IMG/VR virus record: IMGVR_UViG_3300021964_000246
Location: 1-34,548 of that record
Reading direction: 5' to 3' (one strand)
DNA from: a virus
DNA length: 34,548 nt
Made by a program: the position numbers and the translations under genes. The notes beneath the pieces are model-generated. The model saw nothing but the letters and a program-made list of their open reading frames with translations, was not told the DNA's origin and searched no databases. This document shows positions 3,350-34,548 of the stretch, in pieces (the first letter of the stretch is position 1; the number at the start of each line of letters is the position of its first letter).

Positions 3350-3371
3350 TGCACGTGCTCCTTTTAGATTT

Positions 3372-3385
3372 GTACTTTAAAGTAC
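3372..3385. repeat. Perfect 14-bp palindrome at the head-operon 5' end
   Basis: GTACTTTAAAGTAC reads identically on both strands. It lies just downstream (on the minus strand) of the late-type -10 element at 3389-3396, so it would sit at about the first transcribed bases of the gp67-21-22-23 message. Confidence 0.6.
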
Positions 3386-3388
3386 TGA

Positions 3389-3396
3389 TATTTACA
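3389..3396 (-). promoter_or_regulatory. Probable T4-type late promoter (TGTAAATA) for the gp67-like/21/22/23 genes
   Basis: The minus strand reads TGTAAATA, one mismatch from the T4 late consensus TATAAATA recognised by gp55. It lies 40 bases upstream of the gp67-like ATG, in the only sizeable gap (108 bases) of the minus-strand head cluster. A gp55 gene is present in this window. The match is imperfect, so this is an inference. Confidence 0.5.
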
Positions 3397-3457
3397 CAAA
3401 AGGCGATAAAACGGTGGCAAAAAGCGGTCATTTTGGCACTTTTTACTATTTGATGAC

Positions 3458-4081
3458 TTATAAATGTAATTCCAAATTATATATCTTCAAAAATTCTTCA
3501 ATATAGATGTGTTTTATATTGTTACTGAACTCTAGATCGTGTGGTTTGAACCAGTTTTTTGGAATAACGCGAGTAAATTTGGTGTTAGGATAGTCCTTGA
3601 TCACGGTTTTTGTTTGATTTAACCAATTACCATAAAAGGTGGCTTCGTCTTTTGTCTTTTTGTAGTTCCTTGTGTCCTTGAAAATGTTATTAAAAGTAAA
3701 CCTATTTGCTTTTTCATCTGTTCTGTGTCCTTGATAATCGAACCCTAGTATGTTAATCTCGGTGTGACCTTGATCACATGCGTGTTTCAAAGCGGTCGGT
3801 CCAGAACTCCAACCGAGACTTGGTTTGAACCATCGCACGTGATTTTTAATTTTATCGTGTTTGTCGTATTGATGATTGTAGTTTGACCACACCTCGTTGT
3901 TGACAGGGTAGTCTGTTTCACCGATTTCTATTATCATCTTTGGATCGACTGCTACAAGCACGTCTGGTCTGTTGTCCCTGTAAACTCCATTGCAGGCCCA
4001 GACTTTGCCGTGCTGTTTAAGATCATCTATCTTGATGCCACGACGTGATTCGCCGTTACCTAATACAAATGCTATGGACAT
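3458..4081 (-). CDS. Unknown protein with DUF115/sialyltransferase-like N-terminus
   Basis: 207 residues, starting MSIAFVLGNGESRRG. The N-terminal pattern (hydrophobic strand, GNGxSR, a spacer, WACNGVYR, then DVLVAVDPKM) recalls the nucleotide-sugar-binding start of DUF115 and family-42 glycosyltransferase-like proteins, where GNGPSL is followed by an N-containing strand. A later stretch, INILGFDYQGHRTDEKAN, resembles a second Rossmann-like strand with charged residues. Its ATG overlaps the stop of the upstream 80-residue gene by one base (TAATG), so it belongs to the head operon although no T4 head gene corresponds to it. It could modify a virion protein or a surface sugar; that is a guess. 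No firm family assignment. Confidence 0.6.
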   Translation of the reverse strand: MSIAFVLGNGESRRGIKIDDLKQHGKVWACNGVYRDNRPDVLVAVDPKMIIEIGETDYPVNNEVWSNYNHQYDKHDKIKNHVRWFKPSLGWSSGPTALKHACDQGHTEINILGFDYQGHRTDEKANRFTFNNIFKDTRNYKKTKDEATFYGNWLNQTKTVIKDYPNTKFTRVIPKNWFKPHDLEFSNNIKHIYIEEFLKIYNLELHL

Positions 4082-4323
4082 TATAACTCTAAGTTATCTG
4101 TGCCTTGGGGTTGTCCGTACATTTTTTGGACAAATACTGCTTCTTGCTTCTGTTCTTCGTCGTGCTGTTCAGACGCAAGTCTCATTTTGTTGATATCTTT
4201 AAGGGTAAGTCTGGTTTTTCTAGTGTCACCGTCGTCTAGAATAGAAATATCGTCTTCTGCGTTGTAGTTTTTTTGTTGCTCTAGACCCTGTTCACCGTGA
4301 TAAAAAAATTCGTTGAGTTTCAT
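4081..4323 (-). CDS. Small conserved-looking protein between portal and core genes
   Basis: 80 residues: MKLNEFFYHGEQGLEQ at the start and a charged helical middle (KDINKMRLASEQHDEEQKQE) ending in a Gln/Gly/Pro-containing tail. Function is not recognised. It starts 11 bases after the portal stop codon and its own stop overlaps the next ATG, so it is clearly part of the operon. Small genes 67 and 68 lie at this place in T4 and encode prohead core parts; this could be a functional counterpart, but no sequence similarity that I can see supports that. Confidence 0.7.
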   Translation of the reverse strand: MKLNEFFYHGEQGLEQQKNYNAEDDISILDDGDTRKTRLTLKDINKMRLASEQHDEEQKQEAVFVQKMYGQPQGTDNLEL

Positions 4324-4334
4324 AAACGTATTTA

Positions 4335-6071
4335 TTAAGTGGTGCCTCCACCGCCTGGTGTAGTTCCTGGTGTGCCTGTGTTACCCGTAGGACCAGTAGC
4401 ACCCGGGGTTCCGCTCTGAGATTCAGGCTGTGGTGAGTCTGGACTTGCCTCTGGTTCGGCAAATTGATCAAGATCTGCTTGTATGCCGGCCTGTGATACG
4501 CCTGCTGTTCTCATCTGTGTTGATTTTGTCTGTTTTTTCTGTGCTACATTGTTTTCTTCCGCCCAGAGTTGTGAGTTTTGTGCCATTTCTTCTTCGGTCA
4601 TGCCCAGGAATCTTTTTAACGCAAACCTTTTGGACATGTAAGGCAGTTCGGCAATCTGAGTAAATGTGCCTACCCTTTGCTGATCCATTTCTGTTTGCCT
4701 GTACTGAGCAAAGTTTTGTGGCGGATTTAATTTGATCTCAAACATAGAGTTGTCAATGGTGTAGCCTTTGTTCTTTATCCAAAGTTTGAACTCCTCGTCA
4801 AAAATTGGAGCCACCATGGACTGCAGTCTCTGACAGTATTTGTTGAATCTCAATTCCTGTATAAATGCTGTGCCCACTCTGCCGTCATTGTATTGTTGTT
4901 GCGAATCATCCGGTCCTGTGGGTAGGTACGACGATGGAATACGCAAACCTCTGAAAAGTTTATTTGTGAAATATCTTAAGTCGTCGATCTCGCCTAGGTT
5001 AGTTCCTCCCGGCAATGTGTCGACTTTAGAACCACGTCCTTCTGCCGTCTGTGGGAAGAAGTAATCCTCGTTGATAGACATTGGGTTATAAGTGGCATCA
5101 ACGTAGTTGACTCCACCGGATGTGCTAGGAATTCTTCTTTGGTTGATTTCGTTTTTGACTCTCTCAACGAACTGCATCGCCAAGTGTGTTGGCATGTTAC
5201 CAACATCTATGTAAAACACTCTACGTTCTGGTGCTCTCTGAACCCTGTAGATAATGATTGCGTCCTCCAGAAGTTCTTTTTGCTTGTACACCTTGAAGAT
5301 CTGTTCAAGTATGGATTGTCCAAAAGGGAATAAGTTGTCTAGTCCATCACTTAAACTCATGTGTACCACGTGTTCGGCATTGATCGCATACTGATTCATT
5401 GTACGATAAAATCTGCCTCCCTGTCCTCCCGCGGCACCCATTCCTGAATTTATGTTACTGCCATAACCTGCCGATGAATAGTTTGCACTGTAAGGTCCGC
5501 TAGCGGTTCCTGTGCCACCATACACCTGATTGGGTGTTACCTGCGTTGCTGATAATCTCTGCAGGTTTGGATTGATGTCTCTGATTATGTATTGTTCCGG
5601 TACCTTGCCCTCCGATTCGTTAACTATGATTCTGTCGACCTTTGCCGCATCAACGTAGAGCCATTTGTTGGTCTCTGGATCTCTCACAAAGAAGCAGTCG
5701 CCGTATTTCAGTACGTTACGAAATATTCTAAATGTTCTTTTTTTGAATTGGTTTGATCGTGTCCACTGCTGTAGGGCCTTCTTGAGTAATTTAACTTCTG
5801 ATTCTGTGACGTCATCTTTGAACACCAAATCAAATGGTGTTTCATTTTCCTTGTTGGTCTGTGTACAGAATTCTGCCAGTATGTCTAGGGCCGCATTGAC
5901 CTCCGAATCAGAATCCATCTGATCGTACTGGAAGTATCTTTGTATCCTGTTAGGGTGTCCGGTATAGACGTCCGGTAGATAAGAACTGTAGTTCCTTTTT
6001 GAGAATTGTGGATTTCTATCTCCTGCTATGGGAGATAAGTTTGCGTCTTTAAAATATTTTTTCCAAGCCAT
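4335..6071 (-). CDS. 20: Portal vertex protein gp20
   Basis: 578 residues (T4 gp20: 524). Family hallmarks are visible: the N-terminal YFQYDQMDSDSEVNAALDIL, the central VERVKNEINQRRIPSTSGG, DYFFPQTAEGRGSKVDTLPG, LGEIDDLRYFTNKLFRGL with RIPSSYLPTG, and FNKYCQRLQSMVAPIFDEEFK. The portal is the dodecameric ring through which DNA is packaged and to which the neck attaches. There are two additions: a Gly/Ser/Tyr-rich insertion at about residues 186-225 and a C-terminal tail of about 35 residues rich in Pro, Gly and Thr with Gly-X-Y triplets. It lies 9 bases downstream of the tape measure gene, and is followed by the small operon genes. Confidence 0.95.
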   Translation of the reverse strand: MAWKKYFKDANLSPIAGDRNPQFSKRNYSSYLPDVYTGHPNRIQRYFQYDQMDSDSEVNAALDILAEFCTQTNKENETPFDLVFKDDVTESEVKLLKKALQQWTRSNQFKKRTFRIFRNVLKYGDCFFVRDPETNKWLYVDAAKVDRIIVNESEGKVPEQYIIRDINPNLQRLSATQVTPNQVYGGTGTASGPYSANYSSAGYGSNINSGMGAAGGQGGRFYRTMNQYAINAEHVVHMSLSDGLDNLFPFGQSILEQIFKVYKQKELLEDAIIIYRVQRAPERRVFYIDVGNMPTHLAMQFVERVKNEINQRRIPSTSGGVNYVDATYNPMSINEDYFFPQTAEGRGSKVDTLPGGTNLGEIDDLRYFTNKLFRGLRIPSSYLPTGPDDSQQQYNDGRVGTAFIQELRFNKYCQRLQSMVAPIFDEEFKLWIKNKGYTIDNSMFEIKLNPPQNFAQYRQTEMDQQRVGTFTQIAELPYMSKRFALKRFLGMTEEEMAQNSQLWAEENNVAQKKQTKSTQMRTAGVSQAGIQADLDQFAEPEASPDSPQPESQSGTPGATGPTGNTGTPGTTPGGGGTT

Positions 6072-12968: not shown

Positions 12969-13161
12969 GGTCCCGATATACAATAGATTGGATGCCTTCG
13001 AGATACAGATAAAGTTTGAGTATTGGTTGAGATCACGTCCAAAGTTATTGGAGATATATGACCAAGGTGGATTACAAATAGAAATAAACAACAACACATT
13101 GTATGGTTATGCTAGGATGTCAGATCGACAATATACCTATTGGTGTTTGACGCAAACTTAA
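12919..13161 (+). CDS. Small unknown protein overlapping the nuclease 3' end
   Basis: The frame ends at 13161 and its downstream part (VPIYNRLDAFEIQIKFEYW, LRSRPKLLEIYDQGG, LYGYARMSDRQYTYWCL) looks like a real protein, with mixed aromatic and charged residues and no low-complexity bias. The start is uncertain: the ATG at 12919 has GGGAGG only 3-4 bases upstream and overlaps the nuclease gene by 50 bases; TTG at 12988 has GAGGT 16 bases before it. The part before about 12964 is basic and less protein-like. About 57-80 residues depending on start. Confidence 0.45.
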   Translation: MLHWSKNTKHKRRLLCEVPIYNRLDAFEIQIKFEYWLRSRPKLLEIYDQGGLQIEINNNTLYGYARMSDRQYTYWCLTQT

Positions 13162-13169
13162 ATAGAAAC

Positions 13170-14447
13170 ATGCCTGACAAAAAACAGATTTTTCCAATTA
13201 AAACATCAACGGCCTGTTTGTTGAAATGGGGCTGGAGTTCTATTTTTTTCCAAAGTGGCACAACCAATTCTTGCCATCGCACACAACTTCACAAAATACC
13301 TGTTGACGATTTTGGATCTTTTCATAACGTTCCTAAAAAGATCGAAGATAGGCAGAGAATGTTAAAAGGAGAATGGCCAAAAAATGACTGCATGTATTGT
13401 AAAAAATTTGAAGATGCGGGACACTACAGCGACAGGATCAATCAACTTCATCAACAAACAGATCCAAACTGTACTCCTCCCGAACTGTTAAAAGATCCAA
13501 CTGCCACCCACGTCACGCCTACAATGGTCGAGGTGTATTTCAAAAATACCTGCAACATGAGTTGCGTGTACTGTGGTCCACACCTCAGCAGTAAATGGGA
13601 AGAAGAGATCAAGAAACATGGCGAGATGCCCGAAATGAAGAAAAGGCTTAAGGATCCGTTCAGCATTGCCCAGGCTCAGCACAATCCTTTCTACGAGAAA
13701 CAGAAAGAGGATTTCTGGAACTATCTTGCCACAGACGGCAGATACAAGGTGTTGCGTTGGTTTTCTCTGCTTGGTGGTGAGCCATTGGTTCTTCCAGAAT
13801 TTGACGAATGCTTGGATTTTTGGCAAAAACACCCCAACGAAAACTTAACGTTTCAAATGGTGACAAATCTCAAAGCGGATCAGGCCAGGTTTAGCAAATT
13901 TTTAGACAAGATAGATATTCTAACAAGGCAGAAAAAAATTTATCAGTTCAAGGTGATAGCCAGCCTGGACTGTTTCTCTCCGGAAACAGAATACGTTAGA
14001 TATGGAATGAAATTGCAACAGTGGAACGAGAATTTTGAAAGACTGCTTTCTATGAAAAATGTGTCACTAGGTATCAATTCGGCCATCAGTGCGTTGACCC
14101 TGCCAACGTTCGAAACTCTATTACACAAAATAAAACAGTGGAACGTGGGACGTAGTGTTACCAACAGGATCATACACAGTTTCAATTTGGACACAGGACT
14201 CACTGATCCAAAGATGTTGGGAGGACAGTTTTATGAAAAAACGTTAGAAAAATGCACGTCATTGTTTGAAGTCAAAAACGGAAGAGAGCTCAGCATCAAA
14301 AGGCACTGGCAAGGCATCGCTGAGCAGATCAAAAAAAGCGAAAAAAACACAAACGCTGTTGCAAATCTAAAAACTTATCTTGGATCTTTGGATTTTAGGA
14401 GAGGAACCAATTGGAAAGAAACATTTCCGTGGTTGCTTGAAGAATAG
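13170..14447 (+). CDS. Radical SAM protein, phage twitch-domain type
   Basis: 425 residues from the ATG at 13170; an in-frame ATG at 13140 lies inside the preceding ORF. The radical SAM cluster motif is CNMSCVYC (Cys128, Cys132, Cys135), which binds the 4Fe-4S cluster with S-adenosylmethionine. The GGEP motif follows in FSLLGGEPLVLPEF. Before it lies a Cys pair, DCMYCKKFEDAG (Cys74, Cys77), with Ser-x-Arg beyond, as in short-barrel 'twitch' radical SAM proteins common in marine phages. Substrate unknown; such proteins could modify a peptide, nucleotide or sugar. It is followed immediately by a terminator overlapping its stop codon, so it ends a plus-strand unit. Confidence 0.8.
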   Translation: MPDKKQIFPIKTSTACLLKWGWSSIFFQSGTTNSCHRTQLHKIPVDDFGSFHNVPKKIEDRQRMLKGEWPKNDCMYCKKFEDAGHYSDRINQLHQQTDPNCTPPELLKDPTATHVTPTMVEVYFKNTCNMSCVYCGPHLSSKWEEEIKKHGEMPEMKKRLKDPFSIAQAQHNPFYEKQKEDFWNYLATDGRYKVLRWFSLLGGEPLVLPEFDECLDFWQKHPNENLTFQMVTNLKADQARFSKFLDKIDILTRQKKIYQFKVIASLDCFSPETEYVRYGMKLQQWNENFERLLSMKNVSLGINSAISALTLPTFETLLHKIKQWNVGRSVTNRIIHSFNLDTGLTDPKMLGGQFYEKTLEKCTSLFEVKNGRELSIKRHWQGIAEQIKKSEKNTNAVANLKTYLGSLDFRRGTNWKETFPWLLEE

Positions 14448-14803: not shown

Positions 14804-15172
14804 ATGAGAATTACCAAACTTGATCCGGAAATAAATCATAAAACTTTCCAAGATGGCAGGGGAGGCATAATGACCTATTATCCCCAAACCGACAGCATAA
14901 AGGAATGGAATGTGATTTTTACTAACAAAGGATCAGTGCGTGGCAAACATTATCACGAAGAATTTGACGAATACATTACCATCTGTTCTGGTGGAGGGGT
15001 ATACGTAGGGGTCGACGACGGTGAAGAATATGCTGTGCCTGTGTCTGCCGGGGATTGCGTCTATATTGCCAAAAACGTGCCTCATACGTTTTACCCAAGA
15101 TCAGACACTGTGATGGTTGCTCAGATCACCAAAAAATGGAATGACTGTGAAAAACCAATTACAAAAATATGA
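14804..15172 (+). CDS. Cupin-fold protein, probably in sugar metabolism
   Basis: 122 residues starting MRITKLDPEINHKTF; the frame is open further upstream, but that part has no protein-like features or ribosome site. The cupin metal motif is visible: GSVRGKHYHEEFDEY (His49, His51, Glu56) and the second motif GDCVYIAKNVPHTFYP (His94). Single-domain cupins of this kind include sugar ketoisomerases and epimerases (FdtA/WbuC-like, RmlC-like) as well as binding proteins. It overlaps the epimerase gene downstream (ATGA), which makes a role in a nucleotide-sugar pathway likely. Exact reaction not determined. Confidence 0.75.
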   Translation: MRITKLDPEINHKTFQDGRGGIMTYYPQTDSIKEWNVIFTNKGSVRGKHYHEEFDEYITICSGGGVYVGVDDGEEYAVPVSAGDCVYIAKNVPHTFYPRSDTVMVAQITKKWNDCEKPITKI

Positions 15173-16050
15173 AAATTTTGATAACCGGATGCCTGGGTTA
15201 CATTGGTACAGAACTTCTTGATCTTTTCAAAAATACTGATCATGAAATCATAGGATTGGACAACGATAGGTCTTTGTACGAAAGATTCGCTCCATTTTAT
15301 ATCAAAGACAAAAACATCAATTTGGTAGTAAAGGACATATGCGATGACATCAAGCAATATAAAGATGTAGACATTGTCATACATCTTGCCGCCGTTGTTG
15401 GTTATGTCAGTTGTGATGATAAACCGAAAGAAGCCTACAAAACCAATATAGAAGGAACAAAAAATGTATTGTCATTAGATAAGCCTACTGTATTTTTAAG
15501 CAGTGGAAGTGTTTATGGAAAGATAGGCACAGTTTGTTCTGAGATCATAGACCCTGTGCCAGAAACATTGTACTCCAAGACCAAAGTACAGGGAGAATCT
15601 ATGTTTATGAAAAAAAAGGATTGGGTGATTCTTAGACCAAGCACATTGTATGGTATTTCTAAGAACATGAGACATGATTTATTGATACACAATTTGATGT
15701 CAGATGCTATTAGGGACAGTGAAGTACATTTGTATCAACCAATGGCTAGGCGTAGTTTCTGCAGTGTTTCGTGTGTGGCTAACTTGTTGTTCTATATCAC
15801 AGAAAACTTTCAAAAATTTAACCGTAATATTTTCAATGTGGGGACTGAAAATTTAAATCTAACCAAATCGGAGATATTGGAAGAAATATCAAAATATGTA
15901 AGTTTTGAAACAAAAATTATAGATAACGAAGACAAGGATCAAAGAGATTATTATGTCAATTATGGAAAACTTTCAAAATTGTACACTGGGATCAAAAAAA
16001 ATCTAGACATCTCAGACTGCATTAAATATTACAAACAATTTCATGAATAA
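15169..16050 (+). CDS. NAD-dependent nucleotide-sugar epimerase/dehydratase
   Basis: 293 residues of the extended short-chain dehydrogenase family. The NAD-binding motif GCLGYIG lies at residues 7-13, Asp31 in GLDNDRS probably contacts the NAD ribose, SSGSVYG holds the catalytic serine region (111-117), and YSKTK carries the Tyr135-xxx-Lys139 pair. Length is slightly short for the family (310-340). It likely converts a nucleotide sugar; substrate unknown. It overlaps the cupin gene by 4 bases and the next epimerase gene by 8, so the three form one unit. Confidence 0.85.
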   Translation: MKILITGCLGYIGTELLDLFKNTDHEIIGLDNDRSLYERFAPFYIKDKNINLVVKDICDDIKQYKDVDIVIHLAAVVGYVSCDDKPKEAYKTNIEGTKNVLSLDKPTVFLSSGSVYGKIGTVCSEIIDPVPETLYSKTKVQGESMFMKKKDWVILRPSTLYGISKNMRHDLLIHNLMSDAIRDSEVHLYQPMARRSFCSVSCVANLLFYITENFQKFNRNIFNVGTENLNLTKSEILEEISKYVSFETKIIDNEDKDQRDYYVNYGKLSKLYTGIKKNLDISDCIKYYKQFHE

Positions 16051-22129: not shown

Positions 22130-24286
22130 ATGGCAGATCTAAACATCAATAATTTGCTCAACACTGTCATTTCGGACAAAAAGACCAAACAAAAAGTCAA
22201 CGTTCAGGACGCATTTGCTATAGACAATGTGTTGAACCGCTATGCGTCATACAACTACTTGTTCACACTGTCTGCCATATCGGAAACAGATTACAGAGAC
22301 CCCAAGCGTTATCTTGGAAAGAAACCCAAAGATGTCATAGCAAGATCTTCGGGCATACTCGAAGAACTCAGCCAGACAACAGACGGCGACACAATCAAAA
22401 CAGAAGATCAAAAAGGGCAATCGTCTTTCGATGGTTTGAATCAAAGGGAAAAGGGAGCAATCAAGCGGGCACAGGGCATTTTGAAAGAAAAAAAGGATCT
22501 ATATTTTGAAACTGTCAGCATTGATTCTGTTCATGGATACAATCAGGAGAGGAGGTTGGGCACTGTTACGAAGATTAGAATGAGACTCAATGAACCGTCC
22601 GGTATAACCCTGCTAGAAAAAATGAAGGCCGCCGCGTTCAACAACGGGTGGCGTGATCACATCGATGCCGCTTTTTTATTGACCGTTGAATTCAAGGGAT
22701 TTGACGAGCTGGGCAAGGAGATGCCGTTGGACAATTCCGTTTACAAAAAAGTGATACCAATAAAGATCACAAGGTGTCAGATCAATGTTAACCAAGCCGG
22801 GGCAATTTACGACATAGAAGCGGTACCATTCAATGAATTCGGGTTCATGAACCGGTTCACTTATCTTAGAAGCACCATCACCTTGGAGAAAGCGTATGGT
22901 ATCAGGAATTTTTTATTCAGGTTACAAAATGAACTTAACGCCAACACCAAACAGGAAGCAGATAAAGGACTGTTTGAAAAAGGCAAACAGGACAGGTACA
23001 GAATAACCATAGATCCCAAATTTGGCGACATCCCTCTCAAGGTGGACGGAAAAGGAAAAAATGTAAACACTGTGCCCATGCAGGATTACCAGGAACCGGA
23101 CTTCTTCAACCAAGTGGAGACTCTGGCTTCTCCACCGAAAGTTTTTAAATTCGGAACCAAGACCGGCACCATACAGCCGGGAACATCTATAATGAAGATA
23201 CTCGAGGAAGCAATGACCAGCCTACAACCGGTGCAGGACACGGTCAAGAATTGGTTCTTCAAAACAGTTGCCGCGATACGAGAAAAGAAAGGCAGAGAGC
23301 TCATAGGAAACGACGATCTTGCGTCACTGGAAGAATCGGACTACTACATAGATTGGTTCAAAGTCAAAAGCGAAGTGGTCCAGGACACCGGACAACTTGA
23401 CAACATCACAAAACAACATCCTAAACTTATCCAGTATCATGTGTATCCTTACAAGTTGCACGTATTTAGATTGGTACAACCCGGTATTAGTTTGGGAGCC
23501 TCCAAAGATGTATTGGTAAGAAAGATTTATGATTACATCTTTACAGGTGACAACAGAAACATTTTGGATCTTGACATCGACTACAAGGTAGCATGGTTCC
23601 AGACCAGGCTTGAACCGGTCAGCCCCAATTGGAAAAATAGCCTTAACAGTGGACAAGACACATTTTCTTACAAATATGGCACAGAAACACAGATAGAAGA
23701 TCTTTTACCTATTAGGTCATATCCTTCCGGAGTCAAGTCAGCACCGGCCGGTATCTTTAGCAGTGACGACAAACAGAAAGTGGATCTTTTCATGGATGCC
23801 TTGACAAATCCACAAGCAGACATGGTCAAAGTTCAATTGCGAATAATGGGAGACCCTTCATGGATCGGAGCAACACAATATTTTCCTTTGAAACTTTCTG
23901 TCACCGGCAATTCAAGCGTGGCAGTAAACCTAACACCGTCAGAATTTCAAGCCACAGGACAGTTTAACTCGAGGTTCCAGTGCTACAATGTTGAGGCCGT
24001 AGACCCTATAGTAAGATTGAATTTCAAAATGCCAAATGATTTCGACGAGCTGAAAGGCACATACAACCTTTCGAGAACCCAGACTGCTGTTTTTTCGGGT
24101 TTGTACCAGGTATATAAAGTTGAAAGCAATTTTGACAGAGGACAATTCACGCAGGTGCTTCACATGACACGATTTAATAATCAAGGAGAAATTAGAAAAA
24201 CAAACTACCAAGAAGTGAAATGGTACGTTGCTCCAGATAACAGGGTGTTCACGGCGGCCACCACAGACACAGAGGGCAGTTTCTAA
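22130..24286 (+). CDS. Baseplate hub protein (role of T4 gp27)
   Basis: 718 residues. The N-terminal 250 residues hold FETVSIDSVHGYNQERRLG, EKMKAAAFNNGWRDHIDAAF, and VEFKGFDELGKEMP. The C-terminus (GLYQVYKVESNFDRGQFTQVLHMTRF) has the pattern that closes gp27/gpD-type hub proteins: a strand, then GxFTQxL. It directly precedes gp5, as hub and spike genes do. T4 gp27 has 391 residues, so this version has a large insertion. The assignment rests on position plus the C-terminal pattern; sequence similarity to gp27 itself is not visible by eye. Confidence 0.6.
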   Translation: MADLNINNLLNTVISDKKTKQKVNVQDAFAIDNVLNRYASYNYLFTLSAISETDYRDPKRYLGKKPKDVIARSSGILEELSQTTDGDTIKTEDQKGQSSFDGLNQREKGAIKRAQGILKEKKDLYFETVSIDSVHGYNQERRLGTVTKIRMRLNEPSGITLLEKMKAAAFNNGWRDHIDAAFLLTVEFKGFDELGKEMPLDNSVYKKVIPIKITRCQINVNQAGAIYDIEAVPFNEFGFMNRFTYLRSTITLEKAYGIRNFLFRLQNELNANTKQEADKGLFEKGKQDRYRITIDPKFGDIPLKVDGKGKNVNTVPMQDYQEPDFFNQVETLASPPKVFKFGTKTGTIQPGTSIMKILEEAMTSLQPVQDTVKNWFFKTVAAIREKKGRELIGNDDLASLEESDYYIDWFKVKSEVVQDTGQLDNITKQHPKLIQYHVYPYKLHVFRLVQPGISLGASKDVLVRKIYDYIFTGDNRNILDLDIDYKVAWFQTRLEPVSPNWKNSLNSGQDTFSYKYGTETQIEDLLPIRSYPSGVKSAPAGIFSSDDKQKVDLFMDALTNPQADMVKVQLRIMGDPSWIGATQYFPLKLSVTGNSSVAVNLTPSEFQATGQFNSRFQCYNVEAVDPIVRLNFKMPNDFDELKGTYNLSRTQTAVFSGLYQVYKVESNFDRGQFTQVLHMTRFNNQGEIRKTNYQEVKWYVAPDNRVFTAATTDTEGSF

Positions 24287-26721
24287 TGGTAGGAAAATTC
24301 ATAAGTGGAGATATATCATCCGGTAATCTACCAAAAGAAAAAATAGGACAATCGAGGGTAGATTCAGGTCCATTTATAGGCATAGTGAAATCTAACATAG
24401 ATCCGACCAGGATGGGACGTCTCGGAGTTTTGGTTCCAAGTTTGACCGGTACCTTAGAAATAGACTCAGGACAGTTGGTCACATGTGAATATTTGGCGCC
24501 TTTTTATGGAGCCAAGTCAACAAGATATCTCAACAGCAAAGATCCATATGGATACGAGAACACACAACACAGTTACGGTATGTGGATGGTTCCACCGGAT
24601 ATAGACACAAAGGTACTTGTTATATTTGTGGAGGGAAGGGTTGATCAGGCTTTCTGGATAGGTTGTGTACAGGATCCTCTAATAAATCACATGATCCCGG
24701 GAATAGCGGCATCAAAGGCCACGGCGATGCCCGACGGACAACAAGGCAACAGTAAAATTGGAACATACGGCAACGATGAATTGCCATCCGGTGAATACAA
24801 CAGATTGGTATTAGACGAGAGAGGGGATGACACAGCCAACCCCAATGCTCTAAGGTCAATACACCCTTTCGCGGAAACTCTTAGACAAGAAGGATTATCG
24901 CAGGATGACGTGAGGGGAACTACAACATCTTCCGCAAGAAGAGAATCACCTAGCCAGGTTTTTGGAATTAGTACCCCCGGAAGGAGAGATCCAGCCGCAC
25001 CAGACAAGATAATGGGCGTGAAAAACAGCCAACACAAAGAAAAAATAGAAAGGTTAACCGGACACACCCTTGTAATGGACGACGGTGACAAAGACGGGGA
25101 AAACCAATTGATGCGTCTACGAACAGCGAGTGGCCACCAACTTCTTCTACACGACACGACAGGAGTGGTTTACCTAGCCAACGGATCAGGCAACACGTGG
25201 ATGGAATTTTCTGCCAACGGAAGCATAGACATATACGCAGGAGGAAGTGTAAACCTCAGATCCAGAGGTGACATGAACTTTCACAGCGACTCGAACATCA
25301 ACATGTTCAGTCAAAACGATATCAAATTGAGTGCGTTGAGAAAAGTGGTAGTGGATGGGGGATCTATAACAAATTATTCAGATACGGATATATTATTGCA
25401 GGCATCAATGGGTAGTGTACTGATGAAAGCACCGATAGGCAATTTGCTTACCGATGTTGGAGCAAATATAATAAGCCAAGGAAAAGGTGTGCACCACGTG
25501 ATTGGTTCACAGGTTCATTTAAATTCGGTGCCAAGAATTGATGAGTTGGTTCCCACACAGTTCAGGACAAAATCTTATGAGGACACAGGGACCGGCACAG
25601 CCAGAGAAATTGTGCCTGATGTTAATCCTGTGGCAAAATATCTTAGAGGTCCGTTGGAAGTGACTCCTAAGGGTAACATCACAATGACCGGCATGCGAAT
25701 GCCGACACACGAGCCTTATCCTTTTCATTTCGACAAGGTGGTCAGTTTCGTAGGATTGGCACCCGACAACAATGACCTAGTACCAGGTACAGCAAATTAC
25801 ATAGCACACAGGAATAGGACCAGTGACAACACAGCAATACAAATTGGTCAGTTCCAGGCCGATCTACAATATTATCTAGAGACTCAAGGATTTGGCACAG
25901 ATGTGGCATCTGCTGTCAACAAAGTAAAAGGAAAAGTTACTCAAACAAAAACACAAAAATCTATAACCAAGTTACAAGAGTTGGCAGATGAATATACAAA
26001 AAATTACAAGGAAACTTACAAGATACCCGACCTGCCTAGCAACCTAAGTTCGATCACAGCAGGAGTCAGTGACGCCGTGAATCAAACCATACAGGGAATC
26101 ACGGGAGATACCGTGAATTACCTCAAAGACCAAGTTTTTATCAAAGAGGCAGGAGAGATATTTTCTGCTTCTAATCTAGGTAGCAAAATAAGTGGTGATA
26201 TCAAAAACGTTTTTGGTGATCTTTCATCTCTGATTAACGTGGACACCACAGTGGGAAATATTTTGAAAAATGATTTGCCGGGCAATGCTTTCGGTCCCGG
26301 ACTTGGAAGCATACCTAAGATACCCGGCATACCCGACCTACAAGGGACAGTGGGTGATCTCAGTTTAGGTAATCTCACACGGAACCTTTCTAACCTTACC
26401 AGCAGGAATAGAACATTGACCACTGCTGTAGAAACTGGTCTTAAGATCAACGACCTTACACAAGGAGAAGCCGGCAAGGCATTGAAAGATGTTTTGTTTG
26501 GCAAAAATCCTCTCGGTGATTTTGATCCAGGCACACAGGGCATATTCGGAACCGGTGGTATGATAGGCAAGGGCGGAATAGTCACAGACGTCTACAAAAA
26601 TATAATGGGCGGAAAGGCTACAGTGGTGAACAAAGTCCAAAGCATCTTCAGTGGAATAGGAACAGGATTCGAGAAAAAAATAGCCAGTATAGGTTCAGCG
26701 ATCAACAGGTTATTTTCATAG
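24286..26721 (+). CDS. 5: Baseplate central spike gp5-like (no lysozyme domain)
   Basis: 811 residues. Residues about 30-150 form the OB-fold of gp5/VgrG spikes: GPFIGIVKSNIDPTRMGRLG, then YGMWMVPPDIDTKVLVIFVE and FWIGCVQDP. Residues about 290-410 have short repeated strands (ANGSIDIYAGGSVNLRSRGD, MNFHSDSNINMFSQNDIKLS), the triple-stranded β-helix needle. The T4 lysozyme domain between these parts is absent. Instead a region of about 120 residues (150-270) and a long C-terminal extension of about 400 residues, partly coiled and rich in Ile/Gly/Pro, are present. The spike pierces the outer membrane. Its start overlaps the hub stop codon. Confidence 0.85.
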   Translation: MVGKFISGDISSGNLPKEKIGQSRVDSGPFIGIVKSNIDPTRMGRLGVLVPSLTGTLEIDSGQLVTCEYLAPFYGAKSTRYLNSKDPYGYENTQHSYGMWMVPPDIDTKVLVIFVEGRVDQAFWIGCVQDPLINHMIPGIAASKATAMPDGQQGNSKIGTYGNDELPSGEYNRLVLDERGDDTANPNALRSIHPFAETLRQEGLSQDDVRGTTTSSARRESPSQVFGISTPGRRDPAAPDKIMGVKNSQHKEKIERLTGHTLVMDDGDKDGENQLMRLRTASGHQLLLHDTTGVVYLANGSGNTWMEFSANGSIDIYAGGSVNLRSRGDMNFHSDSNINMFSQNDIKLSALRKVVVDGGSITNYSDTDILLQASMGSVLMKAPIGNLLTDVGANIISQGKGVHHVIGSQVHLNSVPRIDELVPTQFRTKSYEDTGTGTAREIVPDVNPVAKYLRGPLEVTPKGNITMTGMRMPTHEPYPFHFDKVVSFVGLAPDNNDLVPGTANYIAHRNRTSDNTAIQIGQFQADLQYYLETQGFGTDVASAVNKVKGKVTQTKTQKSITKLQELADEYTKNYKETYKIPDLPSNLSSITAGVSDAVNQTIQGITGDTVNYLKDQVFIKEAGEIFSASNLGSKISGDIKNVFGDLSSLINVDTTVGNILKNDLPGNAFGPGLGSIPKIPGIPDLQGTVGDLSLGNLTRNLSNLTSRNRTLTTAVETGLKINDLTQGEAGKALKDVLFGKNPLGDFDPGTQGIFGTGGMIGKGGIVTDVYKNIMGGKATVVNKVQSIFSGIGTGFEKKIASIGSAINRLFS

Positions 26722-26735
26722 GTTAAATAGTACTA

Positions 26736-27140
26736 ATGGCGGCTAACAAAAAACTAAATGGTGTGAATTTTCAAATCTTCAAAGGATTCAGTTCCAGAGC
26801 GGAAAACAGCAATTTCAAACTTTATGATTTCGAGTGCGTGAAACAGGATCTAATCAACAGGCTGAGCGTAAGAAAGGGAGAACGTGTAGAAAATCCAGAT
26901 TTCGGCACGATTGTTTATGATGTCATATTTGAACCTTTAACCGACGCTGTAAAACAAGCAGTTGCCGAAGACATCACTCAGCAGTTGAATGCTGATCCAA
27001 GGATCAGCACAGAAGAAATTATTGTAAGCGAAAGTGAACAGGGCATATCTGTACAAGCGTCAATAACCTATGTTCCTTACAATATTACCGAGAAATTGAC
27101 CTTGGCTTTCGATGAAAACTCCACAATACGTTTGTCTTAA
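26736..27140 (+). CDS. 25: Baseplate wedge protein gp25
   Basis: 134 residues (T4: 132). Family motif VENPDFGTIVYDVIFEPLTD contains the conserved Phe-Gly and the Glu-Pro-x-T/L pattern of the GPW/gp25 family, preceded by VKQDLINRLSVRKGE and followed by VAEDITQQLNADPRI. gp25 forms the sheath initiator on the wedge. Starts 14 bases after the gp5 stop. Confidence 0.95.
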   Translation: MAANKKLNGVNFQIFKGFSSRAENSNFKLYDFECVKQDLINRLSVRKGERVENPDFGTIVYDVIFEPLTDAVKQAVAEDITQQLNADPRISTEEIIVSESEQGISVQASITYVPYNITEKLTLAFDENSTIRLS

Positions 27141-27183: not shown

Positions 27184-30100
27184 ATGGCCAGTACAGATAG
27201 ACAAAACAGATTACTAGTATCAGAAGATTGGAGGAAGATCTACACTGCTTTCCAACAGGCAGACTTTAAGTCTTACGATTTTGAAACACTGCGTAGGACA
27301 ATGATAGCCTATCTAAGGGAGAACTATCCAGATGATTTCAACGATTTTGTTGAGAGTTCAGAGTATATTGCTCTCATAGATCTGATCGCCTACATAGCAC
27401 AATCGTTGTCGTTCAGAGTTGATTTGAATGCTAGGGAAAATTTTTTAGAGACTGCGGAAAGAAGAGATTCCATACTTAGACTGGCTAGGCTTATAAATTA
27501 CAATCCCAAAAGAAATAAAGCGGCCAGTGGATTGTTGAAAATTATTTCTGTGTCCACTACACAGAACGTCACCGATAGTTCCGGATCAAACCTTGCTAAC
27601 ACTACTATTCTTTGGAATGATAGTACCAACGCCAATTACAGAGAACAATTTGTAAATGTTCTCAACGCGGCCAATGTATCCGGCCAGAAGTTCGGCGATC
27701 CGTTAGAACAAGACAGCATAGGAGGAATTGATACGCAAGTGTACACTTTCAATAATGTCAATGTTGGATTACCAATTTTTGCGTATACCAAAAATGTAAG
27801 TGGAGTCACAAGAAATTTTGAATTGGTACCTAGCACTATTTTAGATTCGGAATCAATTTACGAGCAGGCACCGTTGCCTGGTGGCGGTTTCGGATATCTA
27901 TATAGGACCGACGGAGCAGGAGATTCAAGTCCTAACACAGGGTTTTTTGTACAGTTCAAACAAGGAAATTTATCCAACACGGATTTTTCAATTACGAATC
28001 CTACAACTAATTTTGTTCAACCTATATCAGTCGATAACATAAACAACGACGATGTATGGTTATACAAACTAGACGACTTTGGTCAGCCGGACACACTTTG
28101 GGATAAAGTGCCTTCGTTGTCCGGCAACAATACCATTTACAATTCGCTTTCGGCAGATAAACGTGATATCTACAACGTGGTAACCAAAAACAATGACAAC
28201 ATTGATCTTGTGTTTGGTGATGGAAATTTTTCTAACATACCTTCGGGTTCATTTAGGACCTATTACAGAACAAGCGACAATGCTAACTTTGTGGTTCAAC
28301 CCAATGACATGCAGAACATACAATATCAGTTGGAATATGAAGATGCCAATGGTGGGACTCAGACACTTACAATAGTGGCATCATTACAACAAAGTGTCTA
28401 CAATTCTTCTGCCACCGAATCAAACAATTCTATAAAAGAAAAAGCACCACAAGTATATTACTCACAGAACAGAATGATAACTGCCGAAGATTACAACATA
28501 GTGCCGTTGTCCGCCAGCCAAGATATCATAAAAACCAAAGCCAATAACAGGATAGCATCTGGTATATCTAGGGCAAAAGAAATAATTGACCCATCGGGTG
28601 CCTACAGCAGTGTTAATGTTTTAGCAGAGGATGGAATATTGTATAGAGAGGAATCTTTGCCAGCATTCACCTTCACTTTTAACAACAGGAATGATATATT
28701 GAATACAATCAATTCCAATGTTGAGGCAAAACTTTCGGAAGCCTATAGCAGACAGTTTTTTTATATAAAGTATGGATCAAAAGATGTTTCTGCCCTGTCG
28801 GCGAGTTGGATAAGCACAACAACATCTACAAATGAAAACACAGGTTATTTCAATGCAGGTGGACCGTTGCTTCTGGGAGATTTTTCTACCAATAACTTAA
28901 AATATGCTAAAGCCGGATCATTGATAAAATTTGTAAGTCCGGATACAAGAGAATTTCTAAATGGCAATTTGGTAACATCTGGAACAAATAATGCTGAAGA
29001 TAGACAATGGGTCAAAATTAGCAACGTGGTCGGAGATGGTTCAAATGGGGGAGTGGGTAATCTAGAATCAGGAGTAGGACCCGTAACTTTAAGCAGTGTG
29101 GTCCCTGCTAATGCAGTGATTAGCAAAGTTTTTCCTATCTTCTCAACCAGTTTTACAAACACGCTGAAGAACGACCTAATAGACAGGGTAGAAAATTTTG
29201 AGACCTTTGGATTAAGATATGACGAAGATGATAGCAACTGGAAAGTAATTACGGCAACCAACTTGAGCCAAAGCAGTGTGTTTTCATTGAATAATGCTGG
29301 AGACACATCAGGCACAGAAATTGACGCCAGTTGGTGGTTCAAATTCACTAACGACGGAGATACCTACACAGTCACATATAGGGCCTACGAATATATTTTT
29401 GAATCTGTGTCCGAGAATAAATTTTATTTCGAAAAGACCGATAAAGTTTATGATTACGTTCTAGGTAAATCTGTAAAAGACACTGTAAAAATAGTTAAAA
29501 GCAACGATATTTTAAGCACGGGAAATGCTATTGGTTATCCAATCAATTGGCAAGTGGTAGACACCATAGAAGAGTCCGACGGTTATCAAGACAACAGAAA
29601 AGTCAAGGTTGGATTTTTTGATGACGATGACGATGGTGTTGTAGATAATCCTGAAATTTTCGACATAATTGTAGAACCCGACACCAACGTATCGACTAAA
29701 TTTGTATTCTTCGAGAAATATATCGGATACAACAACATAGAAAGATACAGGCCTTATGCGGCTACAAATTTTGTAGTCACGCAAAATGAAGCAGACATTA
29801 CATTACCGGGTGGTTACAGCAACGGGCAACTATTTTACTTCTATGACGAAAACGAAAATGTAATTAAAAAATACAATTCAACCACTATAACTTTAGAAAC
29901 CTCCACAGACTATATCGCCAGGAGCGGTAGATCGGATTTGGTTTTCCAATACAAGCATAGTGCCGGACAAAATTCTAGGATAGACCCAGCACAAACAAAT
30001 ATAGTAGACATCTATTTGCTTGAAAGAAATTACGACTCTTTGTTTAGGGCATGGTTGTCGGACGGCGGCATCAAGCCAACAGAAAGCACCTCGGATCAAT

Positions 30101-30669
30101 TGAGAATCAATTATGACGGAGCACTATCGCCTTTGAAAGCGTTAAGTGATCAAATAATTTATCATCCTGTAAAATATAAAATTCTATTTGGCAACAAGGC
30201 AGACGAAGAATTTCAGGCCACATTCAAAGTAGTTAAAAACAACAAGACAAATGTTTCTAACGCAATCATCAAGTCTAGGGTAATAACAGCAATAAACGAA
30301 TTTTTCGCGTTGGACAATTTTGATTTCGGTGACACTTTTTATTTCACAGAGCTAGCCTCGTATATACACAAGGAATTGGCACCGGATTTATTGACAGTTG
30401 TAATTGTCCCTAATCAATCAGGGCAATCTTTTGGATCATTATTCCAGATCAGCGGAGCATCTAATGAGATCTTTATAAGTGGTGCAACAGTCGACGACGT
30501 TTCTATAATAGATGCCATTGGTGCTAATCAACTTGCGGCCAGCGGCACGGTGGTTACAAGTACCACTTCAATTACATCATCTAATAGATCTACTTCGGCG
30601 GTCGGAACCAGTACTAGATCTTCATCTGGATCTGGATCTAGCACAGGCAGTAGCGGAACAGGATACTAA
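27184..30669 (+). CDS. 6: Baseplate wedge protein gp6
   Basis: 1161 residues (T4: 660). The N-terminus matches gp6/baseplate-J: SEDWRKIYTAFQQADFKSYD, ETLRRTMIAYLRENYPDDFN, SEYIALIDLIAYIAQSLSFR and DLNARENFLETAERRDSILR with LARLINYNPKR. The middle holds the J-like part (VVTKNNDNIDLVFGDGNF, SQNRMITAEDYNIVPLS). The last 40 residues are a Ser/Thr/Gly-rich linker. gp6 dimerises around the dome to hold the wedges. The family in marine T4-like phages is larger than T4's. Stop overlaps the next ATG (TAATG). Confidence 0.93.
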   Translation: MASTDRQNRLLVSEDWRKIYTAFQQADFKSYDFETLRRTMIAYLRENYPDDFNDFVESSEYIALIDLIAYIAQSLSFRVDLNARENFLETAERRDSILRLARLINYNPKRNKAASGLLKIISVSTTQNVTDSSGSNLANTTILWNDSTNANYREQFVNVLNAANVSGQKFGDPLEQDSIGGIDTQVYTFNNVNVGLPIFAYTKNVSGVTRNFELVPSTILDSESIYEQAPLPGGGFGYLYRTDGAGDSSPNTGFFVQFKQGNLSNTDFSITNPTTNFVQPISVDNINNDDVWLYKLDDFGQPDTLWDKVPSLSGNNTIYNSLSADKRDIYNVVTKNNDNIDLVFGDGNFSNIPSGSFRTYYRTSDNANFVVQPNDMQNIQYQLEYEDANGGTQTLTIVASLQQSVYNSSATESNNSIKEKAPQVYYSQNRMITAEDYNIVPLSASQDIIKTKANNRIASGISRAKEIIDPSGAYSSVNVLAEDGILYREESLPAFTFTFNNRNDILNTINSNVEAKLSEAYSRQFFYIKYGSKDVSALSASWISTTTSTNENTGYFNAGGPLLLGDFSTNNLKYAKAGSLIKFVSPDTREFLNGNLVTSGTNNAEDRQWVKISNVVGDGSNGGVGNLESGVGPVTLSSVVPANAVISKVFPIFSTSFTNTLKNDLIDRVENFETFGLRYDEDDSNWKVITATNLSQSSVFSLNNAGDTSGTEIDASWWFKFTNDGDTYTVTYRAYEYIFESVSENKFYFEKTDKVYDYVLGKSVKDTVKIVKSNDILSTGNAIGYPINWQVVDTIEESDGYQDNRKVKVGFFDDDDDGVVDNPEIFDIIVEPDTNVSTKFVFFEKYIGYNNIERYRPYAATNFVVTQNEADITLPGGYSNGQLFYFYDENENVIKKYNSTTITLETSTDYIARSGRSDLVFQYKHSAGQNSRIDPAQTNIVDIYLLERNYDSLFRAWLSDGGIKPTESTSDQLRINYDGALSPLKALSDQIIYHPVKYKILFGNKADEEFQATFKVVKNNKTNVSNAIIKSRVITAINEFFALDNFDFGDTFYFTELASYIHKELAPDLLTVVIVPNQSGQSFGSLFQISGASNEIFISGATVDDVSIIDAIGANQLAASGTVVTSTTSITSSNRSTSAVGTSTRSSSGSGSSTGSSGTGY

Positions 30670-33600
30670 TGGCTGACACCCCTATAAACAGTCAAAGCAA
30701 CGCCGAGGTTGTAAATCAAAAAAATAAAACTACCTTGAGAAGAACAGTTGCTCACCTACCGGCATACTACAGGACAGATAACAATGAAAGATTTTTTTCC
30801 AGCACCCTCGATCAATTTGTACAACCAGGAAATCTACAAAGGCTTGATGGGTATATAGGCAGGAATTATTCTTACACTAACCGACCAAATGATTCATACC
30901 TTACTGCTACTAGCGAGGAGAGAAAGAACTATCAACTTGAACCAACAGTGGTTTACACCGAGAAAGATACTTCATCTATCAATCCCGAAGATCAAGTTAC
31001 GTTTACTGGCACTTATGACGATTATATCAATCAATTGAAATTTTATGGTGCTAAAGTTAACAATCATGACCGGTTGAATAACGGAGAAGTATATTCATGG
31101 AATCCTGCCATTGATTTTGATAAGTTGGTAAATTACAGAGAATATTATTGGTTGCCGGAAGGCCCAAATCCTATTTCAATAAACACGGTAGGGACCGGTT
31201 CGGTTTCTGACATAGATGTTTCTGCCAACGGTGTAAGTGCCTATAGGTTCAATAATTATGGAACAGCAGACAATCCAACGTTGACCGTGTATAGGGGAAA
31301 TACCTATAACTTTATAAAAGACATCGACGCCCATCCTCTGTTCATAATGACAGAGCCATTCAAGACTGGAATTGCACAAGACGGATCAACATCTGTGATC
31401 TATTCAACAGGGGTCACAAACAATGGAGTCAAAAAAGGAACTTTGACTTTTTCTGTGCCTGATGACGCACCAGACGTTTTATATTACCAATGTGGTAGTC
31501 ATTCACCTATGTATGGCATAATAAAAGTAAAAACTGCCACTTCTACCACAAAGATTGATGTGGAGCACGATATTTTAAATTTGAAAAATTATAAAACAAC
31601 AGGTGGAACATCGCTGTCAAATGGAATGAAAATAAAGTTTTTATCCAACGTTACCGACACAGCAAAATACAGTAACAAGGAATTTTATGTAGAAGGTGTT
31701 GGCGAGGCCATAACACTCACAGATACCGCTGATTTGATCGTGCCTGAAAGTTATTCGGAAGAAACCACAACAACGTATGACGACATACCATATGACACAA
31801 GACCCTACAGTATAAGTTTTTACAGGCCAACCGACAAAGATTACATCACTATCAAGCGGGACTCTTTAGACCGAAACGCATGGTCGAGATACAATAGATG
31901 GTTCCATAGGAAAGTTATTGAGTCCACCGCGGTGGCTAATGGATACACTCCAGAACTGCTAGAAAACGACAGGGCCAAAAGACCTATTATAGAATTTGAC
32001 TCTGGTTTGGCTTTATATAACCATGGTACGCAAGCCTTGAATTCTGTGGCTTTGATCGATACGACTACCACAGATGTTATGAGCACGGTGGTTAACACGA
32101 CTGGGTACATTGTAGATGGTGTAAATTTAGTGGATGGCATGCGTGTACTTTTCACAGCGGACACTGACTATTTGGTCAAGAACAAAATATACAAGGTAAA
32201 CTTCGTTACGGTTGGAACACAATCTGTCATTAATCTCACATTAGAAGACACTCCTTTGGATAAGCAAAATGTTTTCGTTGAATTAGGAACCGATAATCAA
32301 GGAAAAACTTTTTACTATGACGGAGACTCGGAAACCTGGAAAGCATCGCAGACAAAGACAGCATTAGGACAAGAACCGTTATTTGATATATTTGATCAAC
32401 AACACGTGTCATTTTCTGACAGTGTAAAATATCCCAACAGCACATTCACAGGAGCAAAAGTTTTTAACTATGCGACGTCGGACTCCAGCGTACTAGACAC
32501 CGTCCTTAATAAGAAAGTAAAGTACAGGACCATTAACAATGTTGGCGATATTGTGTTTGAATCTGATCTAAGTAGCGGAAGTTTTACCTACACAGATTCT
32601 AATAATAAAGTGTTAACAAAAAACTATGCCGAAGCACATCTGCACTACACCACCGGTAGGACCAGTCATAACTCAAAGAGCGCCTGGATCAAACGAAACG
32701 AAAATAGCATACAACGGGTAATTAGGACCTATGTCGTGACACCTGATGAGTTAAGACTTTTTCCTATAGATGTTTTTGAAAAGTCAAAAGATCTGTCAGA
32801 TCTTTCGATATCTGTGGACGTAAATCATGTGCGTAAAGATTTAAACCTTGATTACACTTTGGTCGATGGAACAACAAACAAATATGTAAAATTCACCAAA
32901 GAGCTTAAAGTAAACGATTTTGTGAAACTGGAATGTTACAGCAGTGTGCAGAAAGTGGATGGAGTTGGTTTGTACGAAGTACCAGAAAACCTTTCGATAA
33001 ATCCGTTCAACTCACAACTATCGGAATTCACATTCGGTCAAATTTTAAACCACGTGCATGACATACACGAGAAAAACATAGAGATAGTCGGTCCTATGCC
33101 GGGCAGTTCAAACCTCAGGGATCTACCGGATGTAAGGACCAAGGGTGGAACAATACTACAACACGAGGCATCGTTGGTTCCATCGATGTTTTTGTTAATT
33201 GATAAAAATGCCAATCTTATTAGTTCCATAGATTATGTCGCCAGCGAATATCAAAAATTCAAAGAAAATTTCCTGAATTATCAAGTGGGCACTGCTTTCG
33301 AAGGCAATGTTGCCGACAGAGTGGACGAGATAATCGAATCTTTGGCAAGGGATAAAAACAATTCTTTTCCTTTCTTCTACGAGGATATGATAGGACACGG
33401 AGAAAACGTTAGTGTGAGAAATTACACGGTAGAGGATGTTTCTGAAACCCAATATCCAATCGACTCGCAATTCGATGTTACTATTACTAGTAATAGGGCA
33501 GTCTATGTCTACTTGAACGATTCACAACTTGTTCTTGGCACAGACTATAGTTTTAGCACAGACACAGACAATGTAAACATCACCGCTACTTTGAATGTTG

Positions 33601-34548
33601 GAGATAAGATCACAATCAAAGACTTCTCAAACACAGAAGGTAGTTACGTGCCGGTGACGCCGACAAAGTTAGGAATCTATCCAAAATTTAAACCAGAACT
33701 GATAGTTGACGACAGTTATGTGACCCCACAATCCGTAATTGTCGGCCATGACGGTTCACGAATTAAGGCCTTTGGTGATTACAGAGATGATTTATTATTG
33801 GAATTAGAAAAAAGGATCTACAACAACTGTAAAACGTCATATGATAGAAGTTTGTTAGATATTTCAAAGGTGATGCCTGGTGCTTTTGCCAGTACAGAAT
33901 ATACCATGGCGGAGCTCAATGAAATTCAAGCGAATGATTTCTACACCTGGGCAGGAAAAAATGGAGTGGATTTTAGGGCAAATACTTCTTACAGTGATTC
34001 AAACACTTTCACTTTTAACTATTCAAACAGTACGGGTAGATTGAATCAAAAAAGGCTTCCGGGATTCTGGAGGGGTATTTTCTTTATGCACTATGACACC
34101 GATAGGCCACACACGCACCCATGGGAAATGATAGGCTACTCAGAAAAACCTTCATGGTGGGAAAGCACTTATGGAGTTGGACCGTATTCATCGGGCAACA
34201 CGATAATGTGGAATGATTTGGCGTCTGGTTTCGATGCCGGTACCAATCAAGTGAACACTAGGTATGCTAGACCAGATCTATTAGATTACCTACCCGTTGA
34301 CGCAAATGCTAATCTTTTATCGCCGATCGATATAGGGTTGATAGGTAGTTACAGTAGGAAGAAGTTGAGCGGAGATTGGAAGTTCGGAGACCATGGACCG
34401 GCAGAAACAGCATGGAGGAGAAGTTCGGAGTTCTGCTTCTCGATAGTCAAACTATTGGCCTTGACTAAACCTGCTGAGTTTGGATCTTTATTTTTTGACA
34501 ATTCAAGATTAACAACTAATGTGCAGGGTAATATCATCGATTCGGACA
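30669..34548 (+). CDS. Giant baseplate wedge-region protein with cupredoxin domain (gp7 position), partial
   Basis: At least 1293 residues, open to the window end, starting MADTPINSQSNAEVVNQ. The opening (TLRRTVAHLPAYYRTDNNER, FFSSTLDQFVQPGNLQRLDG) and later stretches (WRRSSEFCFSIVKLLALTKP) resemble large virion proteins next to gp6 in T4-like marine phages; T4 has gp7 (1032 aa) there. Residues about 190-288 form a cupredoxin-like β-domain with a plausible type-1 copper site: His222 (DAHPL), Cys275 and His278 (YYQCGSH), Met281 (SPMYG). The domain sits near the N-terminus of the protein. Its role (copper binding, fold only, or adhesin) is not known. The gp7 equivalence is by position. Confidence 0.7.
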   Translation, partial: MADTPINSQSNAEVVNQKNKTTLRRTVAHLPAYYRTDNNERFFSSTLDQFVQPGNLQRLDGYIGRNYSYTNRPNDSYLTATSEERKNYQLEPTVVYTEKDTSSINPEDQVTFTGTYDDYINQLKFYGAKVNNHDRLNNGEVYSWNPAIDFDKLVNYREYYWLPEGPNPISINTVGTGSVSDIDVSANGVSAYRFNNYGTADNPTLTVYRGNTYNFIKDIDAHPLFIMTEPFKTGIAQDGSTSVIYSTGVTNNGVKKGTLTFSVPDDAPDVLYYQCGSHSPMYGIIKVKTATSTTKIDVEHDILNLKNYKTTGGTSLSNGMKIKFLSNVTDTAKYSNKEFYVEGVGEAITLTDTADLIVPESYSEETTTTYDDIPYDTRPYSISFYRPTDKDYITIKRDSLDRNAWSRYNRWFHRKVIESTAVANGYTPELLENDRAKRPIIEFDSGLALYNHGTQALNSVALIDTTTTDVMSTVVNTTGYIVDGVNLVDGMRVLFTADTDYLVKNKIYKVNFVTVGTQSVINLTLEDTPLDKQNVFVELGTDNQGKTFYYDGDSETWKASQTKTALGQEPLFDIFDQQHVSFSDSVKYPNSTFTGAKVFNYATSDSSVLDTVLNKKVKYRTINNVGDIVFESDLSSGSFTYTDSNNKVLTKNYAEAHLHYTTGRTSHNSKSAWIKRNENSIQRVIRTYVVTPDELRLFPIDVFEKSKDLSDLSISVDVNHVRKDLNLDYTLVDGTTNKYVKFTKELKVNDFVKLECYSSVQKVDGVGLYEVPENLSINPFNSQLSEFTFGQILNHVHDIHEKNIEIVGPMPGSSNLRDLPDVRTKGGTILQHEASLVPSMFLLIDKNANLISSIDYVASEYQKFKENFLNYQVGTAFEGNVADRVDEIIESLARDKNNSFPFFYEDMIGHGENVSVRNYTVEDVSETQYPIDSQFDVTITSNRAVYVYLNDSQLVLGTDYSFSTDTDNVNITATLNVGDKITIKDFSNTEGSYVPVTPTKLGIYPKFKPELIVDDSYVTPQSVIVGHDGSRIKAFGDYRDDLLLELEKRIYNNCKTSYDRSLLDISKVMPGAFASTEYTMAELNEIQANDFYTWAGKNGVDFRANTSYSDSNTFTFNYSNSTGRLNQKRLPGFWRGIFFMHYDTDRPHTHPWEMIGYSEKPSWWESTYGVGPYSSGNTIMWNDLASGFDAGTNQVNTRYARPDLLDYLPVDANANLLSPIDIGLIGSYSRKKLSGDWKFGDHGPAETAWRRSSEFCFSIVKLLALTKPAEFGSLFFDNSRLTTNVQGNIIDSD

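Follow-up and report, generated by a model that had tools for sequence, protein, structure and literature searches.

A predicted cupredoxin module, complete with type-1 copper ligand residues, in the giant gp7-position tail protein of a probably marine phage

The Cys, His and Met ligands of blue copper proteins are spaced as C-x2-H-x4-M in plastocyanin and pseudoazurin and as C-x4-H-x3-M in azurin, while rusticyanin, a free periplasmic protein, has a longer ligand loop, C-x4-H-x4-M. Where metals are known in phage tails, they are mostly iron and zinc bound in spikes and fibres. The open-access literature yielded no paper that describes a cupredoxin as part of a phage virion, and databases may well label some of the proteins described below as cupredoxin-like without publication. 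A conserved type-1 copper ligand set in tail proteins of many cultured marine cyanophages, spread over several unrelated proteins and found in a Pelagibacter phage fibre as well, would put the cupredoxin fold to a new use.

The window, by which we mean the whole stretch of 34,548 nucleotides that was analysed, comes from an uncultured bacterial virus, probably a marine one. Its end is occupied by a large open frame (30669..34547, + strand) which runs off the window, so that only the first 1,293 residues of the protein are covered. This product matches phrog_10938, a virion structural protein, with an E value of 6e-175. It had been described as giant from the sequence alone, and this was borne out, as ortholog frames remain open over 4,167 to 4,663 amino acids on longer contigs. 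Upstream on the same strand are a gp5-like baseplate hub/tail lysozyme gene (24286..26721; phrog_13211, and Pfam Phage_base_V with E 3e-6), a gp25-like wedge subunit gene (26736..27140; phrog_43 and phrog_261, both baseplate wedge subunit) and, just before the giant gene, a gp6-like wedge subunit gene (27184..30669; phrog_10646, baseplate wedge subunit, E 1.6e-286). The name gp7 derives from this position, after gp25- and gp6-like genes, and by homology to virion proteins of the jumbo phages Phosso, Atu_ph07, PA5oct, GAP32 and CBB, with some 25-31% identity over most of the stretch. For Pseudomonas phage PA5oct, the record of the homolog itself marks detection by ESI-MS/MS. The name finds no backing, on the other hand, in the annotated gp7 of P-SSM4, whose first 1,952 residues have no detectable similarity to the gp7-position protein. 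The window also encodes, in the interval separating head from baseplate genes, a weak radical-SAM-like protein (13140-14447, + strand) and a nucleotide-sugar epimerase-like protein (15169-16050, + strand).

A copper-type domain had been proposed at residues 190-288 of this protein. The domain is indeed present, with somewhat wider limits, approximately residues 182-292 (31212..31544, + strand), as judged with AlphaFold2, Foldseek and VIA-align 2. An AlphaFold2 model of these residues, computed without templates from an input alignment of 58 orthologs, corresponds to a separate and confident domain (mean pLDDT 89.8, pTM 0.82) made of eight strands. When residues 1-470 were modelled together, mean pLDDT was 61, the cupredoxin stretch being the most confident unit and everything except this domain and its C-terminal neighbour being of low confidence. 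Since the surroundings of the domain are thus poorly defined in the larger model, its exposure on the particle is only inferred.

Structure prediction and comparison with blue copper proteins, which the sequence-only reading had called for, yielded a confident fold whose best structural matches are cupredoxins. In a Foldseek search of the PDB, the best 17 rows were all cupredoxin-fold copper proteins (best E 4e-4), with a pseudoazurin carrying an amicyanin loop on top, and AcoP, plastocyanins, amicyanin, an azurin with a CAAHAAM loop and rusticyanin also present. With VIA-align 2, the best match was to residues 29-137 of a three-domain nitrite reductase (Z 9.9, rmsd 2.2, 89 aligned residues), and two-domain laccases followed at Z 8-9, values of 8 to 10 being just moderately higher than those that unrelated sandwiches score.

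The four proposed ligands were found at the residue numbers first quoted for them in the 30669-34547 frame (AHPLFIM...YYQCGSHSPMYGIIKVK). They are His222, in a GHPF-type motif (31332..31334, + strand), Cys275, the putative thiolate ligand and the sole Cys within the domain (31491..31493, +), His278, the second His (31500..31502, +), and Met281, the candidate axial ligand (31509..31511, +). In the model, and using domain numbering, His222 precedes strand 43-46, Cys275 ends the next-to-last strand 89-94 with His278 in the loop that follows, and Met281 stands just ahead of the last strand, 101-107. The order of ligands relative to strands is the same in plastocyanin. This placement was deduced from strand order together with alignments, where His222 falls opposite the first His ligand both in rusticyanin and in bacterial PF00127 proteins.

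Among 92 distinct gp7 orthologs, the four residues are kept in 90, 89, 90 and 91 sequences, respectively. The exceptions are a C to G change in L027, an H to M change in L142, and the combination of C to S and H to N in L064 and L093. One further ortholog domain, split by an inserted stretch (L068, 3616-4149), is degenerate and has lost all ligands. Conservation also extends beyond gp7: the H-C-H-M set was present in 161 of 195 distinct domain sequences taken from all protein contexts, and in the corresponding alignment the four ligand positions were among the best-conserved 8-9 of 111 (p ~1e-5 for the four named positions). The survey of relatives, another check named in the sequence-only reading, showed a set conserved both in orthologs and across other phage tail proteins, which exceeds what chance would give.

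The relation to known copper proteins was less easily seen at the sequence level. Taken alone, the window protein is below the curated cut-off of every Pfam cupredoxin family. PF00127 (Copper-bind) does not match it, and is matched weakly by 3 of 58 orthologs (best E 2e-4). The nearest Pfam model is PF25489 (At5g54830-like), which gives 23.1 bits and E 8e-5 for the window, compared to a curated cut-off of 27, and which matches 56 of the 58 gp7 domain sequences (best E 5e-8). This family takes its name from a plant protein, and also matches one bacterial CHRD-protein relative. Nothing was found in NCBIfam, and when the window domain served as the only query against PDB sequences, just chance matches came back (ribosomal uL18).

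Two profiles were therefore used, A1 built from close orthologs and A2 wider, across protein contexts. Against PDB sequences, A1 gave weak matches, with artefacts from fusion tags and, at E 0.13, a single engineered azurin. A2 gave plastocyanin (2plt, E 2.4e-5), Cu nitrite reductase (1e-3) and rusticyanin (6e-3), followed by amicyanins, auracyanins and other plastocyanins, nearly all of them blue copper proteins. When aligned with rusticyanin, the phage GHPF-x-I is opposite GHSFDI and ligand matches ligand, whereas with plastocyanin the first His is off by two residues. Using hhalign, A2 was also compared to ten bacterial PF00127 proteins, taken from genomes in the class of the Pelagibacter MAG: probability was 93%, with E 3e-7 and the four ligands paired. 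The best of 40 column-permuted controls reached E 0.08, the reversed control E 0.75, and with A1 by itself the comparison was weak (probability 8%). Once the four ligand columns were masked, the match dropped to E 0.025, meaning that much of the sequence signal is contributed by the ligands themselves. Kinship to the His-Pro-Met motif of multicopper oxidases was considered as well; the hhalign comparison was not significant, and the likeness of the phage HPF is a resemblance only.

Could the likeness to blue copper proteins be fortuitous? Phage tails often contain beta-sandwich domains, and an unrelated Ig-like or jelly-roll domain might have the four residues by accident, the more so as the window alone has no curated Pfam match. 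This is hardly credible, as the structure search returned cupredoxins almost exclusively, the A2 profile found plastocyanin at 2e-5, and the ligands are conserved across contexts; together with the hhalign result, these largely refute it. The template-free model, the structure and profile searches and the relatives all support a cupredoxin fold with a conserved type-1 copper ligand set, so that the description of residues 182-292 as a cupredoxin module with such a set is well supported. Copper binding by the domain is likely, judging from its residues.

The distribution of the module was then informative on its use. A tblastn search with the domain matched 328 of 50,697 phage records, all of them marine phages: phages of Synechococcus, Prochlorococcus or Pelagibacter, other cyanophages, and marine uncultured viruses. 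T4 gave no match. Locations were gp9, long tail fibres, tail spikes, proteins of the podoviruses P-GSP1 and P-SCSP2, and Pelagibacter phage fibres. Foldseek comparison with predicted viral structures also retrieved cyanophage proteins annotated as subtilases. In P-SSM2 (L161), a subtilase gene (905-2737) is immediately followed by a gene for a tail spike (2761-6045), and the latter encodes two cupredoxin modules. Matches to the predicted fold were also given by "beta-sandwich" proteins of Pithovirus and Marseillevirus (BFVD A0A481Z6J5, A0A481YXP1 and others), which, going by predicted structures, are possibly cupredoxin-like proteins of giant viruses.

In gp7 itself, the domain is absent from the corresponding site in all six jumbo-phage homologs inspected (Phosso, Atu_ph07, PA5oct, GAP32, Vibrio 2.275 and SCTP-2), a Vibrio phage and a saltern phage being among these homologs. 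The domain therefore looks like an insertion that took place in the lineage of the window. Giant gp7 genes with 52-57% identity over the domain were also present on five contigs of bacterial MAGs (L149, L150, L151, L152 and L153), all of which have the look of phage sequence that was binned with bacteria.

Searching genome collections with A1 yielded mostly such apparent phage contigs binned into MAGs; PF00127 was not found in three MAG-type genomes with apparent binned phage contigs. Clear cellular relatives came from A2. One Pseudomonadota genome (L350) encodes two adjacent short, probably secreted proteins with module and ligands; it is one of 2 matched genomes out of 299, the other match being the centre of the search itself, a phage-like contig. 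For Bacteroidota, matches came from 9 of 198 genomes, centre included, and secreted or lipoprotein-like proteins with module and ligands were found (L353, L355, L357, L359 and L360). Several of the Bacteroidota proteins also have CHRD or fasciclin domains.

From these observations, we consider it rather probable that the gp7 cupredoxin, with its type-1 ligand set, is a mobile outside beta-module, pinned by copper, that serves contact or adhesion at the tail. The module would be self-contained and sit outside the baseplate or a fibre. A bound copper ion would pin the loop end of the sandwich together, and the domain clamped in this way may offer a rigid, compact surface through which it touches adjacent parts of the tail or the surface of the host. 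The module belongs to a cupredoxin family shared by secreted bacterial proteins and by several marine phage tail proteins that are unrelated to one another (gp7, gp9, long tail and podovirus fibres). We favour a rigid contact or adhesion role because the module accompanies adhesion-type domains in cells and, in phages, forms part of fibres, connectors and baseplate proteins; its role would accordingly be stabilising or adhesive rather than electron transfer.

An informative exception to ligand conservation was provided by a fibre clade. While no gp7 ortholog was found to retain the fold without the ligands, this situation was encountered in one distant group, that of tail fibres like those of Synechococcus phage RN05-S (L165 1932-2252; L222-L265), where Phe, Ala and Val or Thr replace His, Cys and His. 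The 28 sequences of this clade read F-A/S-V/T/I-M: the first His, the Cys and the second His are lost together, and the fold and the Met are retained. The clade nests beside intact sequences (L266, Bellamy) with support 100/99. Joint loss of H, C and H supports the notion that these residues form one metal site. Persistence of the fold without them indicates that metal is dispensable in these fibres, and retention of Met without the other three indicates that conservation of this residue is not due to metal alone. The RN05-S-like fibres thus constitute a natural metal-free control.

The same clade bears on the possibility that the module is copper-free in the virion, either apo or loaded with another metal such as zinc, and acts as an adhesive scaffold whose ligands are kept for folding. 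Phage tails are assembled in the cytoplasm, a compartment whose free copper is kept very low. Copper loading would consequently have to come at or after lysis, an awkward requirement which speaks for a copper-free module, as does the clade in which the fold persists with F-A-V/T-M and Met stays alone. However, residues kept for structure only should vary singly, whereas H, C and H were lost jointly in the RN05-S clade, and C and H jointly in L064 and L093. A buried unpaired Cys next to two His is moreover costly in the absence of a metal. We therefore regard a copper-free module as improbable.

More active roles for copper were also weighed. It is unlikely that marine phage tail tips carry working blue copper sites in which copper binding or oxidation state aids host recognition or baseplate triggering. 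A redox or copper switch was considered too, where uptake of copper, or a change in its oxidation near the host envelope, would help trigger baseplate rearrangement or strong adsorption. In T4, parts of the gp7, gp9 and fibre type pass on the adsorption signal; by gene context, the gp7, gp9 and fibre proteins studied here belong to such parts, and in all three the complete type-1 ligand set is under strong constraint. The isolates with the domain, moreover, infect marine bacteria, nearly all cyanobacteria. Yet neither a redox partner nor a further copper site was seen, and the RN05-S fibres work without the ligands, so that a switch appears unlikely to us. Finally, virion-borne copper might exploit a host metal uptake route, in a copper version of the published Ferrojan Horse proposal (iron in tails), which has been discussed for a marine phage (PMC11705849). 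Residues of the metal site are conserved in marine phage tail proteins, as such a ferry would have them; still, the data imply no outer-membrane copper receptor, copies per virion would be few, and the proposal is pure analogy. We hold it to be very improbable.

The presence of copper in virions becomes a simple measurable question, as the domain is present in cultured phages, among them P-SSM4, Syn30 and P-SSM2.

How does the module compare to the systems already described? With amicyanin, pseudoazurin and plastocyanin (PF00127), the phage domain has in common the predicted sandwich type and the places of His...Cys-His-Met in the strand order, despite an identity of about 20%. The sequence-only reading had assigned to it the ligand spacing of blue copper proteins in general; its C-x2-H-x2-M is identical to that of amicyanin, and is not that of plastocyanin or azurin. 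The phage domain has a Pro after the first His, where blue copper proteins usually have Asn, and it is embedded in a giant tail protein, whereas amicyanin and plastocyanin are free electron carriers. Rusticyanin has the same distance from His to Cys as the phage domain, 53 residues by rusticyanin numbering. Among named phage proteins, gp9 of cyanophages (phrog_677, baseplate wedge tail fibre connector) ends in a C-terminal part that is this very domain, ligands included. Cyanophage gp9 is nevertheless a different protein, while the phages related to the window carry the domain in gp7, and exactly once in each of 20 long contigs.
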